Source of the DNA: Eubacterium plexicaudatum ASF492
Lineage (GTDB): Bacteria > Bacillota > Clostridia > Lachnospirales > Lachnospiraceae
Assembly (NCBI RefSeq): GCF_000364225.2
Contig: NZ_AQFT02000001.1
Span: 620,001 to 684,000 of the forward strand
Length of the DNA stretch: 64,000 nucleotides
Direction: 5' to 3'
Shown: in pieces, positions 3,825 to 11,409 of the stretch
How the letters are laid out: each line of letters starts with the position of its first letter
How positions within the stretch are numbered: the first letter of the stretch is position 1
Position numbers and translations under genes: made by a program
Notes under the pieces: generated by a model
What the model saw: only the letters and a program-made list of their open reading frames with translations
Databases searched by the model: none
Told to the model about the DNA's origin: nothing

Positions 3825-5640
3825 ATGAGAAATACAAAAATCAATATTTTTGAAAAAAAGTATAATAAGCTGCTGATATTTCTTATAATGTTTTCCATAT
3901 TTTGTTCTTTTTGCTTCTCAATAGTAAAACACCTCCTATGGGGGAAGATTTGATATTGATTCCCTGGGGAGCAGGAGACAGACCGGGAAATGTATGTGAG
4001 GCTTTCTCACGCATATGCAGTCGGATACGGGAACAGTCTGCGGGATGGAATGTGCGATTTGGAGAGCAATTGTCCATTGTTTTTGCAGCATTACCGAAGC
4101 AGATCTTTCATGTGCTGAACAGCGGTATGGTTTTGCTGTATATCTGCCTGATCTATTGGTATGCATTCAAAAGAAAGATCATATACGGATACTATCATGC
4201 GTTGCAATTGCTGATCTGCTGGACAATGATCATCTGCGCACAGCCGGTATTAGGCGAAATATTTTTCTGGAGAACAGGGAGCGCCAATTATCTATGGGCA
4301 ATCTGTCTGCTGCTGGCCTTTGGAATACCGTTGAGGTACTACATAGGAAATGAATCTATAGATCTTATAGGAACGTCTGTAATCAGGTGTATTCTTCTAA
4401 CAATTGCAGGATTTTTTGCAGGTTTTACAAATGAAAATACAGTGATTGTATTTCTTGTATTATATATCGGAACGATTGTATTTGATAGGATACGCAGAAG
4501 AAGGACGCCGATTTGGATATTTTTATCTGGTACTTCATTTTTTGCGGCGCTATGTATATGTATGTTGCACCAAGTACAAAGGTACGCCGGCAGATCTATG
4601 ACCAGATGTATGGAATTACGGAGGTTAGCTTTCAGGATTATTATATGCGGGCCTTAAAGGTGATCCACCGATTTTTTTATGATAACAGGATACTGGTTCT
4701 TCTGACGGGCATTCTGGTCTTTTGGCATTATATGTATACATTGTCGGATAAGAATATTACATTGCCGGCTAGGAAAAAGAAGCTTATATATTCGGCAGAA
4801 AACCTTATGCTTCTACTATTGACTTCTATTTCCTGCGGAGTTCTGATCCTGAATCCGTATATAGAGACAAGGGCTTTTTTGTTGCCGGATTTTTTCATGA
4901 TGGTGTGTGTGCTTTATTACTTTGAGCAGTTATATTTATTCATCAAAAAGAAAGCAGTTCTTACCGGAACTCTCACTGCTATATTAGCAGGTAGTCTCGT
5001 AATAGAAGTAACTCATATTTATCATACATACAATAATTATTACAACTACGTTCAGCTGCGTTGTCAGGCGATAGCGGAACAGAATGATGAGGATACATTT
5101 ATATGGGGTGCATACCAAGGTGAGGATTACAGCAGAGTTCTCACAACAAGGGAAGATTATTTAATGAATGAGAATACCAGATTAAGTTATTATTTTGGAA
5201 AAAAGATTCAGCCTTTACGAAATTACATATGGGGGTTTTCGATAGATGAATCTTTCGAAAAGGTACATATTGAAGGGGGTTTAGATACATTTTGGTACAA
5301 TAGAGAGGATGATTCCGTAGAGTTGACCGGATGGGCGGCTAAAAAAGAAGATGATGCAGAGAATAACAGTTATTATGTATATTTGGATAGTGGTCAGCAG
5401 CGTTTTTATTTTAAAACGAATCGTATTTCCAGGAAAGATATTGCAGATGCATATGGCAATAATATTTATTTGAATAGTGGTTTTTGCTATACAATAGAGT
5501 CTGTATCAGAAGTAGTTGGAGACACTGAGTTGGAAAATGTTCGTGCTGGCTTTTGTGTAGTTGATGAGAAAAACGGATGGTTTGGAGAACAGGAAGAAGG
5601 GAAGATATATGAGGTTGTCGATCATAGTCCCCTGTTTTAA
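3825..5640 (+). CDS. Large multi-pass membrane protein, DUF6056/GT-C-like (two frameshifts)
   Basis: The reconstructed protein has about 605 residues: an N-terminal hydrophobic segment, a loop with KTPPMGEDLILIPWG, about ten hydrophobic segments, and a soluble C-terminal domain of about 190 residues. The topology and the loop with acidic residues after the first membrane span resemble GT-C type polyprenyl-phosphate-sugar transferases and DUF6056 proteins. That assignment is tentative. The frame breaks at the T4 run 3900-3903 and at the T6 run 4538-4543, and one T in each restores continuity. A ribosome site (AAGGAAAGG) precedes ATG 3825. The gene overlaps the following GtrB-type gene (ATG 5609), which suggests translational coupling. 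Inference: the protein moves a sugar from the lipid carrier made by its neighbour onto a surface glycan. Confidence 0.6.
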
Positions 5641-6533
5641 TGAGCAGGAAGTGCTACCGTTTTTTATGGAGGAGGTATATAAGACGTTACATTGTATACC
5701 AGATCATGAGTATGAAATTATTTTTGTAAATGACGGTTCAAAAGATGAGACGATTCGGGTTATAAAAATATTGCAAAGGCTGATTCATATGTGAGATATA
5801 TTTCTTTTTCCAGAAATTTTGGGAAAGAGGCAGCGCTTTATGCTGGGCTTTGCAAGGCGAAAGGAGATCTGATTGCAGTTATGGATGCAGATCTGCAGGA
5901 TCCGCCTAATCTTTTATTAGACATGTGTACGGCAGTGGAGCATGAACGCTATGATGCGGCGGCAGCGTGCAGGAGCAGCAGAACAGGAGAGCCTGTGATA
6001 AGATCTTTTTTGCGAGTTGTTTTTATCGTTTGATCAATAAAATGACAGATATAGAAATCAGGAATGGAGCACGTGATTTTCGTTTGATGAGCAGAAAATA
6101 TGTAGATGCCTTGTTGCAACTGCAAGAATATAATCGTTTTTCTAAAGGATTGTTTAGTTGGGTTGGATTTAGAGTAAAGTGGATTGAGTATGAAAATATA
6201 GAACGGGCAGCGGGAAGCACAAAATGGTCTTTTTGGTCTTTATTTAAGTACAGTATCGAAGGCATTGTAGCATTTACGACAATACCTTTGATTGTATCTT
6301 CTGTTGTCGGTTTGATGCTTTGTCTATGTGCGTTGTCTGCTGTTCTTTTCATCGCGATCCGTAAAATCCTGTTTGGGGATCCGGTAGATGGATGGGCGTC
6401 GTTGGCGTGCCTGATCACATTTATAGGAGGATGTCAGATGTTTTTTCTGGGCATAATGGGGCAATATGTAGCGAAGATATATTTGGAGAATAAAAAGAGG
6501 CCTATCTATATCGTGGATGAAGAAACGGAATAA
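5609..6533 (+). CDS. GtrB/DPM1-type polyprenyl-phosphate glycosyltransferase (two frameshifts)
   Basis: This is a GT2 enzyme of the kind that loads a sugar from a nucleotide donor onto polyprenyl phosphate at the membrane. The reconstructed order is MRLSIIVPCFNEQE, the nucleotide-binding FVNDGSKDET, the metal-binding VMDADLQDPP, RNGARDFRLMSRK, and two C-terminal transmembrane segments (about bases 6280-6470). This is the classical GtrB layout at about 307 residues. The frame breaks at A5 5764-5768 (restoring KNIAKADSYVRY) and at T6 6006-6011 (restoring RSFFASCFYRLINK). It starts inside the end of the upstream membrane protein, after AGGAAGAAGG. Together they look like a Gtr pair. Confidence 0.8.
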
Positions 6534-7285: not shown

Positions 7286-8284
7286 TTAAAGATAATACAT
7301 TTTCACATACTTTCTCGCATCCTGTAATGTAAGATCGCATTCTTTTTGAAGTTTTTCGACTGCGGTTTCCTGCGGTGCACCAAAGTCTTTGCAGATTTTT
7401 ACGATACCTTCAATTTTGCCCTCAATTTTGCCCTCAATTCTGCCTTCAATTTTGCCCTCAATTCTGCCTTTTTCTCTACTCGTATTTTCTAATTCCTGTA
7501 AAGCCGTACACATATTCATAACACCTCCTCTGCTTTTCAGTGCTTCGTTCATAAGTACGGTGGATTCGGATGCCGCACCAATGGCGAGTCCAAGCTCCGT
7601 GCTGATTTCACGGGTTTTATATACTTCTTCAATTTTACGATAATCTCTGCGGTAGATGTTTCGCATAATCTCAAAAAAATCCTGAACATCGGAATTTTGG
7701 AAACGGTATTCTTCGCTGCCATGAATTTGAATGAGATTGATCTTATAATCGTTGACAAAGCTTCTTAACTGCTTCGGAATATGCTGTAGATCCAGCATAT
7801 CCAATAAAGAATAAGGTCCATCCCAGTCCGTTTCTCCATAATAAACGCATATGGTGACAACCGCATGCAGGCGGTCTTCCCTGCGCAGGCCGGAGAGAAA
7901 TTCAGCGTCATTTTGCAGCGGTTCGGATTGTTTGTTGCGTTTGACTGTTTCGGAATATTCCTTCATATAAATAAGTGCGTCTGCTGTCATATTTCTAAGA
8001 GGCATGGCATAATGTACTTTCATTTGGTTTTCCAGCCCAAGAATTACAAAATCAATGCCATAAGAGCTTTTCTTTACAACATCCAAAATCCGTCCGAGAG
8101 TTTCCGCATGGCCGTTAAATTTCAAAACAGACGACACATCGGTATCAGATTCTGAGAGCATATCGGGTTGCAGAATTTTTTCGCCGTGAAACAAAGAACC
8201 GTTAAATAAATCAGCAAAACGGTCATTGTCGCGCCAGAAATTTTTCAGCACAATGTCCGGTTTCAGTTTGTTTTTTACAGCCAT
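7286..8284 (-). CDS. Rpn-family recombination-promoting nuclease / PD-(D/E)XK transposase-like protein
   Basis: This 332-residue protein has the N-terminal layout of the Rpn family: a start with LKPDIVLKNFWRDNDRFADLFNGSLF, then YGIDFVILGLENQMKVHYAMPLR, which holds the D ... E-x-Q nuclease motif, then VVTICVYYGETDWDGP. Known Rpn proteins are DNA endonucleases linked to RecA-independent recombination. The C-terminus carries a tandem run of five K/R-IEG units (residues about 272-291), followed by a short helical tail. A ribosome site (AGAAGG) sits just upstream of the ATG on the minus strand. It stands alone and is convergent with the decayed nuclease gene on its left. Confidence 0.75.
   Translation of the reverse strand: MAVKNKLKPDIVLKNFWRDNDRFADLFNGSLFHGEKILQPDMLSESDTDVSSVLKFNGHAETLGRILDVVKKSSYGIDFVILGLENQMKVHYAMPLRNMTADALIYMKEYSETVKRNKQSEPLQNDAEFLSGLRREDRLHAVVTICVYYGETDWDGPYSLLDMLDLQHIPKQLRSFVNDYKINLIQIHGSEEYRFQNSDVQDFFEIMRNIYRRDYRKIEEVYKTREISTELGLAIGAASESTVLMNEALKSRGGVMNMCTALQELENTSREKGRIEGKIEGRIEGKIEGKIEGIVKICKDFGAPQETAVEKLQKECDLTLQDARKYVKMYYL
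7411..7470 (-). repeat. Five 12-bp tandem repeats inside the Rpn-family gene
   Basis: The unit CAATTTTGCCCT and its variant CAATTCTGCCTT occur five times in a row with a period of 12 bases, coding K/R-I-E-G on the minus strand. The period is a multiple of three, so slippage would lengthen or shorten the protein without a frameshift. Confidence 0.85.
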
Positions 8285-8859
8285 GGCTTTGCCTTCTTTC
8301 TCTGTGGTTTCTTTATATAGAATAGTATAATTGACGGGTGAAAAGAAGTCAATTGCTTGTTAAAACCGGTTATGGAAGCAGGATAACAAACCAATTATAG
8401 GATATAAGACAATTGAGAATGAGTTAGACAGTTTGTTGCTTTGCTGATGATTCTAATACATAACATTTTATAACAAAATGTTGCCTTTAAGTATTCTATA
8501 CCAAATATCTTTATTTTGCAACAGGAAAGATAAAATTAGCAGTAATTGCTGGTTTTTCTTTCTTTTTTTGTGCTTTATTGTTGAAAAGTTACAATAAAAT
8601 AGGCTGTTTTTATAATTGTTGAAAAATTCATTTTTATCATGTTCGTACGTTTTGATACTTTAAATTTTATCATTTGTTGTTGGGGATATCCGGTGTTTTA
8701 TTGATTTTTTGCGGGGTTTGGGCATGGAACCTGCATTTATAAAACATAACATTTTGTTATAAAATGTTATGCTTTATATTTGTAATATTTGAATATAAGA
8801 ATATAAGAAAAATGTCTGTTATTGGGACACGATATGCAAATCGGTACAGGAGGAGCATC
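8285..8859. other. AT-rich gene-free stretch bounded in part by inverted repeats
   Basis: These roughly 575 bases lie between two divergent genes. The left part must hold the promoter of the Rpn-family gene and the right part that of the XRE regulator. I see no credible gene. The notable content is the pair of inverted 24-bp repeats listed separately. Confidence 0.6.
8459..8771. repeat. 24-bp inverted repeats, each itself palindromic, bracketing 313 bp
   Basis: Bases 8459-8482 and 8748-8771 are exact reverse complements of each other over 24 bases. Each copy is also an internal palindrome: AACATTTT, a 5-base centre (ATAAC or GTTAT), then AAAATGTT. The right copy extends to CATAACATTTT/AAAATGTTATG at 8745-8771. 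The right copy is about 90 bases upstream of the XRE regulator's ATG. The pair could be operators for that regulator or the ends of a small non-autonomous element. No flanking target duplication is obvious. Confidence 0.7.
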
Positions 8860-9215
8860 ATGAAGGAATTGGATTATGGCAAAATGGGCATGAGAATTCG
8901 TCAGGTGAGAAAAGCAAAAGGCTGGTCGCAGGAAGAGCTTGCAAAAAAATGCGGAATCAGCATGTCATTTTAGGGCATATCGAACGCGGAACGCGGATTA
9001 TGAGTTTGGAGACATTTGTAAGTATTTGTGAGGCACTGGATGCCGGAGCGGATGAACTGCTGTGGGGTGTGGTAAATGATACATCGGATGTAGTGCGTAA
9101 TATGTGGGAACCGATAGATGCAGGTAACAGGCAGGCTGAGGGAAAGAAATCAGACAGTTATTCTATGTATGTACGTATTATGAAATCTGTAGCAGAGATT
9201 ATGAATGGGGTATAA
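8860..9215 (+). CDS. XRE-family helix-turn-helix regulator (frameshifted)
   Basis: The reconstructed protein has about 118 residues with an N-terminal Cro/C1-type HTH: MGMRIRQVRKAKGWSQEELAKKCGIS, then SFLGHIERGTRIMSLETFVSICEALDAGADELL. The frame stops after SMSF. Restoring one T to the T4 run 8968-8971 gives SMSFLGHIERG and joins it to the second half. AGGAGG lies at 8849-8854, so the ATG at 8860 is well placed. The C-terminal 40 residues are not recognisable. It is the first gene before a run of glycosyltransferases and may control them. The palindromes upstream are candidate binding sites, by inference only. Confidence 0.75.
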
Positions 9216-10467: not shown

Positions 10468-11409
10468 ATGAAAACCAGGACCGTTCGTGTATTGTTATCG
10501 ACCTACAATGGTGAAAAGTATTTAAAAGAGCAGCTTGACAGTATTTTGATGCAGGAAGATCGGGGAGTAAGTGTGTCGATACTTGTCAGAGATGATGGTT
10601 CTTCCGATCATACACAGGAAATACTTTCAGCATATACAAAGAAATTTAAAAATTTTTCTTGGTATACAGGAAAGCATAAGGGTGCGGCGGGGAGTTTTTA
10701 TGATTTGCTGTTACGAACGGACACGATAGCCGATTATTATGCTTTTGCCGATCAGGATGATGTCTGGAATAAGGAAAAACTGGTACGGGCGGTAAGAAAA
10801 TTGATACAGGAATCCAAACGTATGGATTACGCTGATCAGCCCATTTTGTACGCTGGAAAAGTCATTTGTGCTTCACAGAATTTGGAGAAACAGGAAAGGG
10901 TTTATTACCGTATCGGTAAGAACGCTTCTTTTGGAAATGCTCTGGTGGAAAATATTTGTATGGGATGTACGGAAGTATTTAATTTGGAATTATTATTGCT
11001 TGTCAGGAAACATTTGCCAGGGAGTAATATCATGCATGATTGGTGGATGTATTTAACAGCGGCTTATTTTGGAAAAGTGATTTTTGATCAAAAGGCATAT
11101 ATGCTATATCGACAGCATGAGAACAATGAAGTTGGGATGCAAAATTGCCGGAGGCTGCGTTGGAGAAACAGGATTGAACATGTCAGGAAAATAAAACATA
11201 AACTGTCCGGACAGGCATCGGAGTTTCAAGAGGTATATACAGGTGTGCCGGCAATGCGTAGGGAGGACGAGGGCATATTGGAACAGATGTGCAGATATAG
11301 AGACAGTGTATATAAACGGATTTGCATGGCAGTTACTAGTGGTATCTATAGACAAAACCGGATGGATGACTTAGTTTTTCGATTGCTGATTTTTATAGGA
11401 TATTTGTAG
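10468..11409 (+). CDS. GT2 glycosyltransferase (rhamnosyltransferase-like)
   Basis: This 313-residue GT-A enzyme starts with VRVLLSTYNGEKYLKEQLDSIL, has the nucleotide-binding VRDDGSSDHT and the strong signature AFADQDDVWNKEKL. That pattern is typical of rhamnosyltransferases and related O-chain GT2 enzymes. A basic C-terminal part ends in VFRLLIFIGYL, which looks like a natural family end. Ribosome binding probably uses AGGAGGAAGGG at 10448-10458. The sugar specificity is inferred only from the family resemblance and the RgpF-like gene nearby. Confidence 0.85.
   Translation: MKTRTVRVLLSTYNGEKYLKEQLDSILMQEDRGVSVSILVRDDGSSDHTQEILSAYTKKFKNFSWYTGKHKGAAGSFYDLLLRTDTIADYYAFADQDDVWNKEKLVRAVRKLIQESKRMDYADQPILYAGKVICASQNLEKQERVYYRIGKNASFGNALVENICMGCTEVFNLELLLLVRKHLPGSNIMHDWWMYLTAAYFGKVIFDQKAYMLYRQHENNEVGMQNCRRLRWRNRIEHVRKIKHKLSGQASEFQEVYTGVPAMRREDEGILEQMCRYRDSVYKRICMAVTSGIYRQNRMDDLVFRLLIFIGYL

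Follow-up and report, generated by a model that had tools for sequence, protein, structure and literature searches.

Inverted site pairs upstream of XRE regulator genes in Eubacterium plexicaudatum ASF492 as probable recombination sites of an invertible promoter

Upstream of a gene encoding an XRE-type regulator in Eubacterium plexicaudatum ASF492, two copies of a 24 bp sequence face each other, which raises the question of what such a pair is for. The initial annotation had considered autoregulatory operators able to loop the DNA, or the ends of a tiny element. Here the pair was analyzed in a stretch of 64 kb (the window), in the 6.74 Mb genome containing it (the own genome) and in related genomes. 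Judged from sequence alone, the repeats are very probably the two inverted recombination sites of an invertible promoter (inverton).

The site pair and its homologues

The exact 24 bp inverted copies described initially were recovered at 8459-8482 (CATAACATTTTATAACAAAATGTT) and, as the exact reverse complement, at 8748-8771, with 265 bp between them; the inverted repeat grows to 29 nt at 93% identity (8454-8482 / 8748-8776). Each copy is indeed a palindrome, albeit an imperfect one, in which 8 bp arms (AACATTTT and AAAATGTT) surround an asymmetric centre of 5 nt. This centre reads ATAAC in the left copy and GTTAT, its reverse complement, in the right copy, where the palindromic arms are longer than 8 bp. 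A search of the window for AACATTTTNNNNNAAAATGTT with up to 2 mismatches yielded two matches, both exact and corresponding to the two repeat copies only; in 100 shuffled windows the mean was 0.19 matches, and two matches were reached in 1 of the 100. The following features were assigned.

7286..8284, minus strand: divergent Transposase_31-type gene (Pfam), a neighbour and not a conserved part of the proposed switch
8460..8484, no strand: proposed distal recombination site; 21-mer at 8462-8482, centre ATAAC, proposed 7 bp crossover region TATAACA
8462..8768, no strand: proposed invertible segment, 307 bp including both 21 bp sites
8493..8521, minus strand: promoter-like sequence TTGCAA-17-TAGAAT, exact, pointing left over the distal site and away from XRE (OFF orientation)
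8746..8770, no strand: proposed XRE-proximal recombination site, inverted copy; 21-mer at 8748-8768, centre GTTAT
8860..9215, plus strand: XRE (HTH_3) regulator gene, first of the proposed operon; HTH_3 from Pfam of the intact own-genome paralogue P0001
9265..10464, plus strand: glycosyltransferase, Glycos_transf_1 / family 4, second gene of the proposed operon
10468..11409, plus strand: family 2 glycosyltransferase

The repeats thus lie where they had been placed, between a divergent Rpn-family gene and the XRE gene; the Transposase_31 match of the former, a family that we take to be 'Rpn', is modest (25.1 bits, over a cut-off of 21).

In the proposed mechanism, a tyrosine-type recombinase would bind each site at its conserved arms, and strand exchange within the central ~7 bp would flip the AT-rich segment of ~300 bp. 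A sigma-A-type promoter (TTGCAA-17-TAGAAT) at one segment end would be aimed outward past the adjacent site. With this end on the XRE side, transcription would run into the XRE gene and on through the polysaccharide genes that follow (ON); the assembled window would represent the OFF state.

A genome search for like sites, the check suggested with the initial annotation, was carried out in the own genome with up to 3 mismatches. It gave 23 places, compared with 11 for the pattern read backwards, and the weakest of the 23 are therefore probably chance matches. At eight places good matches pair up ~280-325 bp apart, and one further pair is spaced 938 bp with an extra piece inside its segment; XRE homologues adjoin all nine of these pairs. 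Together with variant-arm pairs found upstream of additional XRE genes, the own genome holds 13 pairs, and nine of its nine distinct strict sites (23-base pattern) adjoin XRE genes. The XRE gene at C1:63754 is accompanied by one site only, and no site pair was found upstream of that at C1:1498438.

Several of these own copies show peculiarities. The pairless XRE homologue (L110, C1:1498438-1498674) lies behind a promoter-like TTGCAG-16-TATAAT, read by eye, and partial matches similar to it are present in four related genomes (G001, G003, G004 and G008). At C1:81 kb (L044:4242-4547) a decayed segment copy with a degenerate second site closely resembles the copy at C1:108 kb; no XRE match was detected in the 9 kb examined near it. 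The DNA behind the XRE genes at C1:108998 and C1:423975 (L035 and L036) is 99.4% identical over 3.95 kb, a likeness that suggests that a switched polysaccharide operon may have been duplicated recently. The segment at C1:1626898-1627856 (L037:4899-5857) is a 959 bp ON segment whose extra piece resembles, by eye, an IS200-type transposase gene.

In the genus, the 23-base site pattern was detected in 11 of 13 genomes (0 of 13 for the pattern read backwards), and XRE homologues at E <= 1e-25 were found in the same 11. Among 150 family genomes, the 25-base site form occurred only in the window's genome; it was absent from the 148 other genera, each represented by one genome, and from G010, one of the two siteless genus members. 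In viral contigs, 16 stretches matched the site pattern once each; these single matches were taken as chance, and phage carriage of the sites was set aside.

For comparison between loci, the best 80 of 84 relatives of the XRE protein in named genomes were used as loci and combined with 16 own loci (n=96). The 80 come from ten assemblies with the titles uncultured Eubacterium sp., Eubacteriaceae bacterium and uncultured Lachnospiraceae bacterium, which from their labels we take to be gut genomes, probably of mouse gut; they partly share assemblies with G001-G012, and site counts there overlap the 96-locus counts. An inverted pair with matching centre was found upstream of the homologous XRE gene in 82 of the 96 loci, these pairs having been picked with a centre mismatch <=1, so that any count of centre identity among them is biased. 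The initial annotation was right to connect the pair with the XRE gene, and this connection is conserved. In nine of the 14 loci with no pair, XRE lies within 300 bp of the upstream contig edge; two of these nine (L223 and L266) start within a -10-like stretch directed toward XRE. L286 and L287 have no pair, yet show a promoter-like match toward XRE. At L116:4055-5027 (G001:C2:110554-111526) two tandem invertible segments precede one XRE gene, and all four sites share the centre CGTAT or its complement; larger inversions or excisions are therefore possible at this locus.

Relative to its paralogues, the XRE frame of the window is broken near 8970, by a real lesion or a sequencing error. Interrupted XRE frames occur in 3 of the 96 loci, all in the own genome (the window and two others). 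At 3902-5640 and 5561-6533 of the window, a glycosyltransferase-like gene and adjoining genes look split over frames, which suggests assembly indel errors or decay. Because XRE frames are broken and nearby glycosyltransferase-like genes are frame-split, indel errors in the own assembly are possible.

The centres of the paired sites

The centres were compared after the two best sites in front of XRE had been chosen by their arms alone, which gave 85 pairs from the 96 loci. In the inverted sense, the 5 nt centres matched exactly in 80 pairs, with 1 mismatch in 2 and with 4-5 mismatches in 3; in the direct sense an exact match was found in 0 of 85. In two of the three non-matching pairs the arms are poor, with 9 and 10 mismatches; the third, at own 6049 kb, was missed by the scan because its left arm is, by eye, one base short. 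Between loci the centres diverge: the 80 exact pairs carry 43 distinct oriented centres, and of 3160 comparisons between two loci, 93 showed a common centre. That selection keeps centres distinct within a genome was not supported, as centres were shared in 16 of 354 comparisons within genomes and 112 of 2967 between genomes, and the fraction of shuffles with so few or fewer was 0.80.

A per-position table was made from 82 pairs, the three with non-matching centres being left out. At site positions 8-14, mismatches within pairs numbered 0, 1, 0, 0, 1, 0 and 0 of 82, as compared with up to 22 of 82 at arm positions. Between loci, five of positions 8-14 are the most variable in the 21 bp site. 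The 7 bp central region was identical in 80 of the 82 pairs, which had been preselected for a centre mismatch <=1.

Strand exchange by tyrosine recombinases is homology-dependent and needs the same centre within a pair, whereas the overlap of serine invertases is 2 bp. A central region that is identical within the pair and flanked by inverted arms fits a site at which a tyrosine recombinase would carry out inversion, and the odd length of the centre argues against a serine invertase. As the centres are exact in 80 of 85 pairs though the arms drift, continuing selection or homogenisation would be needed. Centre identity within pairs together with divergence between pairs also offers a read-free, sequence-only test for recombination sites in any genome set.

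Promoter orientation, contig ends and candidate recombinases

At 80 loci, one end of the segment carries TTGCAA-17-TAGAAT or a variant with up to 2 substitutions, aimed outward over the adjacent site. The distance from the -10 end to the segment edge is 31 or 32 bp in 73 loci and 74-75 bp in 7. A general promoter scan of the window region gave 4 matches versus 3.4 expected, one of which (8588-8616) lies within the segment and is directed toward XRE. By the direction of the outward sequence, 75 of the 96 loci, including the window, were scored as OFF (promoter away from XRE) and 5 as ON (L225, L290, L292, own 1626 and own 610); 2 were unresolved and 14 pairless.

All five ON interiors find their best match in an OFF interior that is flipped; the interior of L225, for example, scores 65 against that of L265 when flipped and 14 when unflipped. 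The OFF interiors, among which the two unresolved loci (L242 and L265) were counted, matched best in the same sense in 77 of 77 cases when compared with a random sample of 25 others. Opposite states were also seen in front of related genes: downstream DNA is 69.5% identical over ~4 kb between L225 (ON) and own 2575 (OFF), and 68.5% identical over 3.9 kb between L291 (OFF) and own 1626 (ON). Both promoter orientations therefore appear to exist, between loci and not within one strain, and the segment would hold an outward promoter, flanked on one side by a gene that it could drive. The nearest upstream frame of the OFF loci lies on the plus strand in 42 and on the minus strand in 27, the flank being too short in 5 and a frame absent in 1; for the ON loci the strands number 3 and 2. 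With strands mixed in this way, it is not supported that the OFF-state promoter drives a conserved upstream gene. The excess of OFF loci suits a cell in which one or few coats are ON, and is not proof of it.

An assembler meeting both orientations would break at the site edges. The 68 strict sites of the draft relatives are found near contig ends more often than expected: 6 stand no more than 50 bp from one (0.47 expected) and 9 no more than 100 bp (0.94 expected), the expectations being computed from rounded contig counts. In G005, contig C107 ends exactly with a site (centre CTAGT) and contig C71 begins exactly with one (centre ACTAG), followed by XRE, a pattern that would be expected for the two flanks of one locus. 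Four further contigs (G006:C30, G006:C240, G008:C127 and G008:C214) end at a site or a few bases from one. G008:C214 and C96 could be the two flanks of another locus; their centres match, but a frequent centre is involved, and C96 opens within a longer palindrome. The end of the site-bearing contig G006:C153 (L149:4180-4213) carries what seems to be Illumina adapter sequence, which we take it to be, and some draft contig ends may therefore be artefacts. The breaks at site edges suggest that orientation may be mixed in the sampled populations; repeats or artefacts could also break contigs there.

Surveys for PF00589, among the matches listed, and for PF00239 in six genomes revealed no candidate recombinase that follows the distribution of the sites. 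P0003 (191 aa) did not fit: 7 of 13 genomes gave strong matches, but the site-bearing G002, G006, G011 and G012 gave none. Nor did P0004, present in 8 of 13 genomes including both siteless ones, or P0005, present in 13 of 13. Serine resolvases (PF00239) were present in all 6 genomes checked.

This bears on a first alternative, namely a relic inversion system that no longer works and has left its promoters fixed mostly OFF. The 75 OFF loci among 80 scored and the lack of a candidate recombinase fitting all site-bearing genomes would be accounted for in this way, but a relic would not be expected to show the selection or homogenisation that exact centres beside drifting arms call for, nor the mixed orientation that the contig breaks suggest, and we regard it as improbable.

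The XRE protein, the downstream genes and known systems

Conservation of the XRE protein is highest in the recognition-helix region (majority fraction 0.91 versus 0.66 for the C-terminal part), and one helix-region sequence, found at 12 loci, occurs with nine different centres. Since the region is conserved and a single helix sequence goes with nine centres, the protein probably does not read the centres; binding to the arms, which the loci share, would be possible. Its C-terminus (P0001 residues 109-128) holds a conserved motif, roughly DSYxMYVRIMKSVAEIM, after a variable linker, which is perhaps an interaction motif.

These observations weigh on the paired operators proposed initially, in which an XRE dimer would bind both palindromes, loop the DNA and control its own gene. 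Operators would agree with palindromic sites conserved near an HTH_3 gene in 82 of 96 loci and with the occurrence of sites and XRE genes in the same 11 genomes. They are nevertheless not the best fit and very unlikely: binding by a symmetric dimer would not account for a non-palindromic centre that is matched in inverted sense within a pair and differs between loci, least of all when the helix region is so well conserved, and both promoter orientations as well as the contig ends at site edges would be left unexplained. The tiny element of the initial annotation, a miniature mobile element (MITE) with 24 bp terminal repeats, is extremely improbable: several similar segments of ~300 bp bounded by inverted repeats in the own genome, the near-identical interiors of those at 6247 and 6285 kb and the decayed copy without an XRE gene would suit it, but all nine strict own sites stand beside XRE genes, the promoter-like sequence keeps a set distance from the segment end, and locus-specific paired centres are unexpected for transposon ends.

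The genes behind the XRE gene often encode glycosyltransferases, a linkage that also speaks for an invertible promoter of polysaccharide genes. A Pfam survey of the first downstream proteins covered 68 of the 80 database loci and assigned 34 to Glycos_transf_1 and 13 to Glycos_transf_2, counts that may overlap; the rest include a few sugar transferases, aminotransferases, epimerases and ABC-2 exporters. For L240, one member of another frequent downstream type, no Pfam or NCBIfam family match was obtained. Further downstream, a permease (L216) and an ATPase (L224) resemble polysaccharide exporters, with scores above the Pfam and below the NCBIfam cut-offs.

A wider reading, which we put forward tentatively and consider rather doubtful as a whole, joins these elements. 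One recombinase common to the genus would flip as many as a dozen or more polysaccharide promoters in each genome, and recombination itself would keep the centres of a pair identical, making them a record of continuing inversion. Centres differing from those of most other loci would block most exchanges between loci. The XRE protein, nearly invariant in its helix region, would act alike on all loci and help to hold one or few coats ON.

In Bacteroides, several capsule loci per genome are switched and most are OFF at any time; promoter inversion there is presumably due to an Mpi-type invertase. The loci described here resemble the UpxY-headed capsule loci of Bacteroides in that inverted repeats flank an outward promoter before a regulator-headed polysaccharide operon. 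They differ in their hosts, which bear Eubacterium or Lachnospiraceae titles, in the sigma-A-type promoter, in XRE as the first gene and in a strict site confined to its genus among the 150 family genomes searched. An enrichment of UpxY genes next to Bacteroidota invertons is described in the available passages of PMC11892184. The same passages report two Clostridia inverton groups, 139 and 125, in the hCom2 community; group 139 is tied to a tyrosine-type recombinase family, with the recombinase mostly nearby, and its invertons altered orientation over culture passages (PMC11892184). Our loci share Clostridia-type hosts with these groups, compared by the description in those passages and not by repeat motif; unlike for group 139 as described there, no Phage_integrase match was found inside the window. 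In Clostridioides difficile, RecV-dependent switches control the flagellar flgB operon and c-di-GMP phosphodiesterase genes, according to the parts of the reports available (PMC8890394, PMC9286219). Like the inversions proposed here, these are reversible inversions upstream of operons at several places per genome, whereas our targets form a glycosyltransferase operon family with one common site type, in contrast to the RecV targets described in those parts. No description of this site family was found in the titles and abstract starts of the literature or in the passages of PMC11892184.

The type of switch is thus already known, and the site family appears to be undescribed. Given many such proposed switches in the own genome and its closest relatives, single cells could differ in their surface coat. 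Since the common site and promoter make likely ON and OFF states readable from assemblies, coat switching in the genus could be traced in public metagenome data. Were a Eubacterium/Lachnospiraceae-type genus to possess a large set of coat-polysaccharide switches, this would be a parallel to capsule switching in Bacteroides, with a regulator (XRE), a promoter and a recombination site that are all different.
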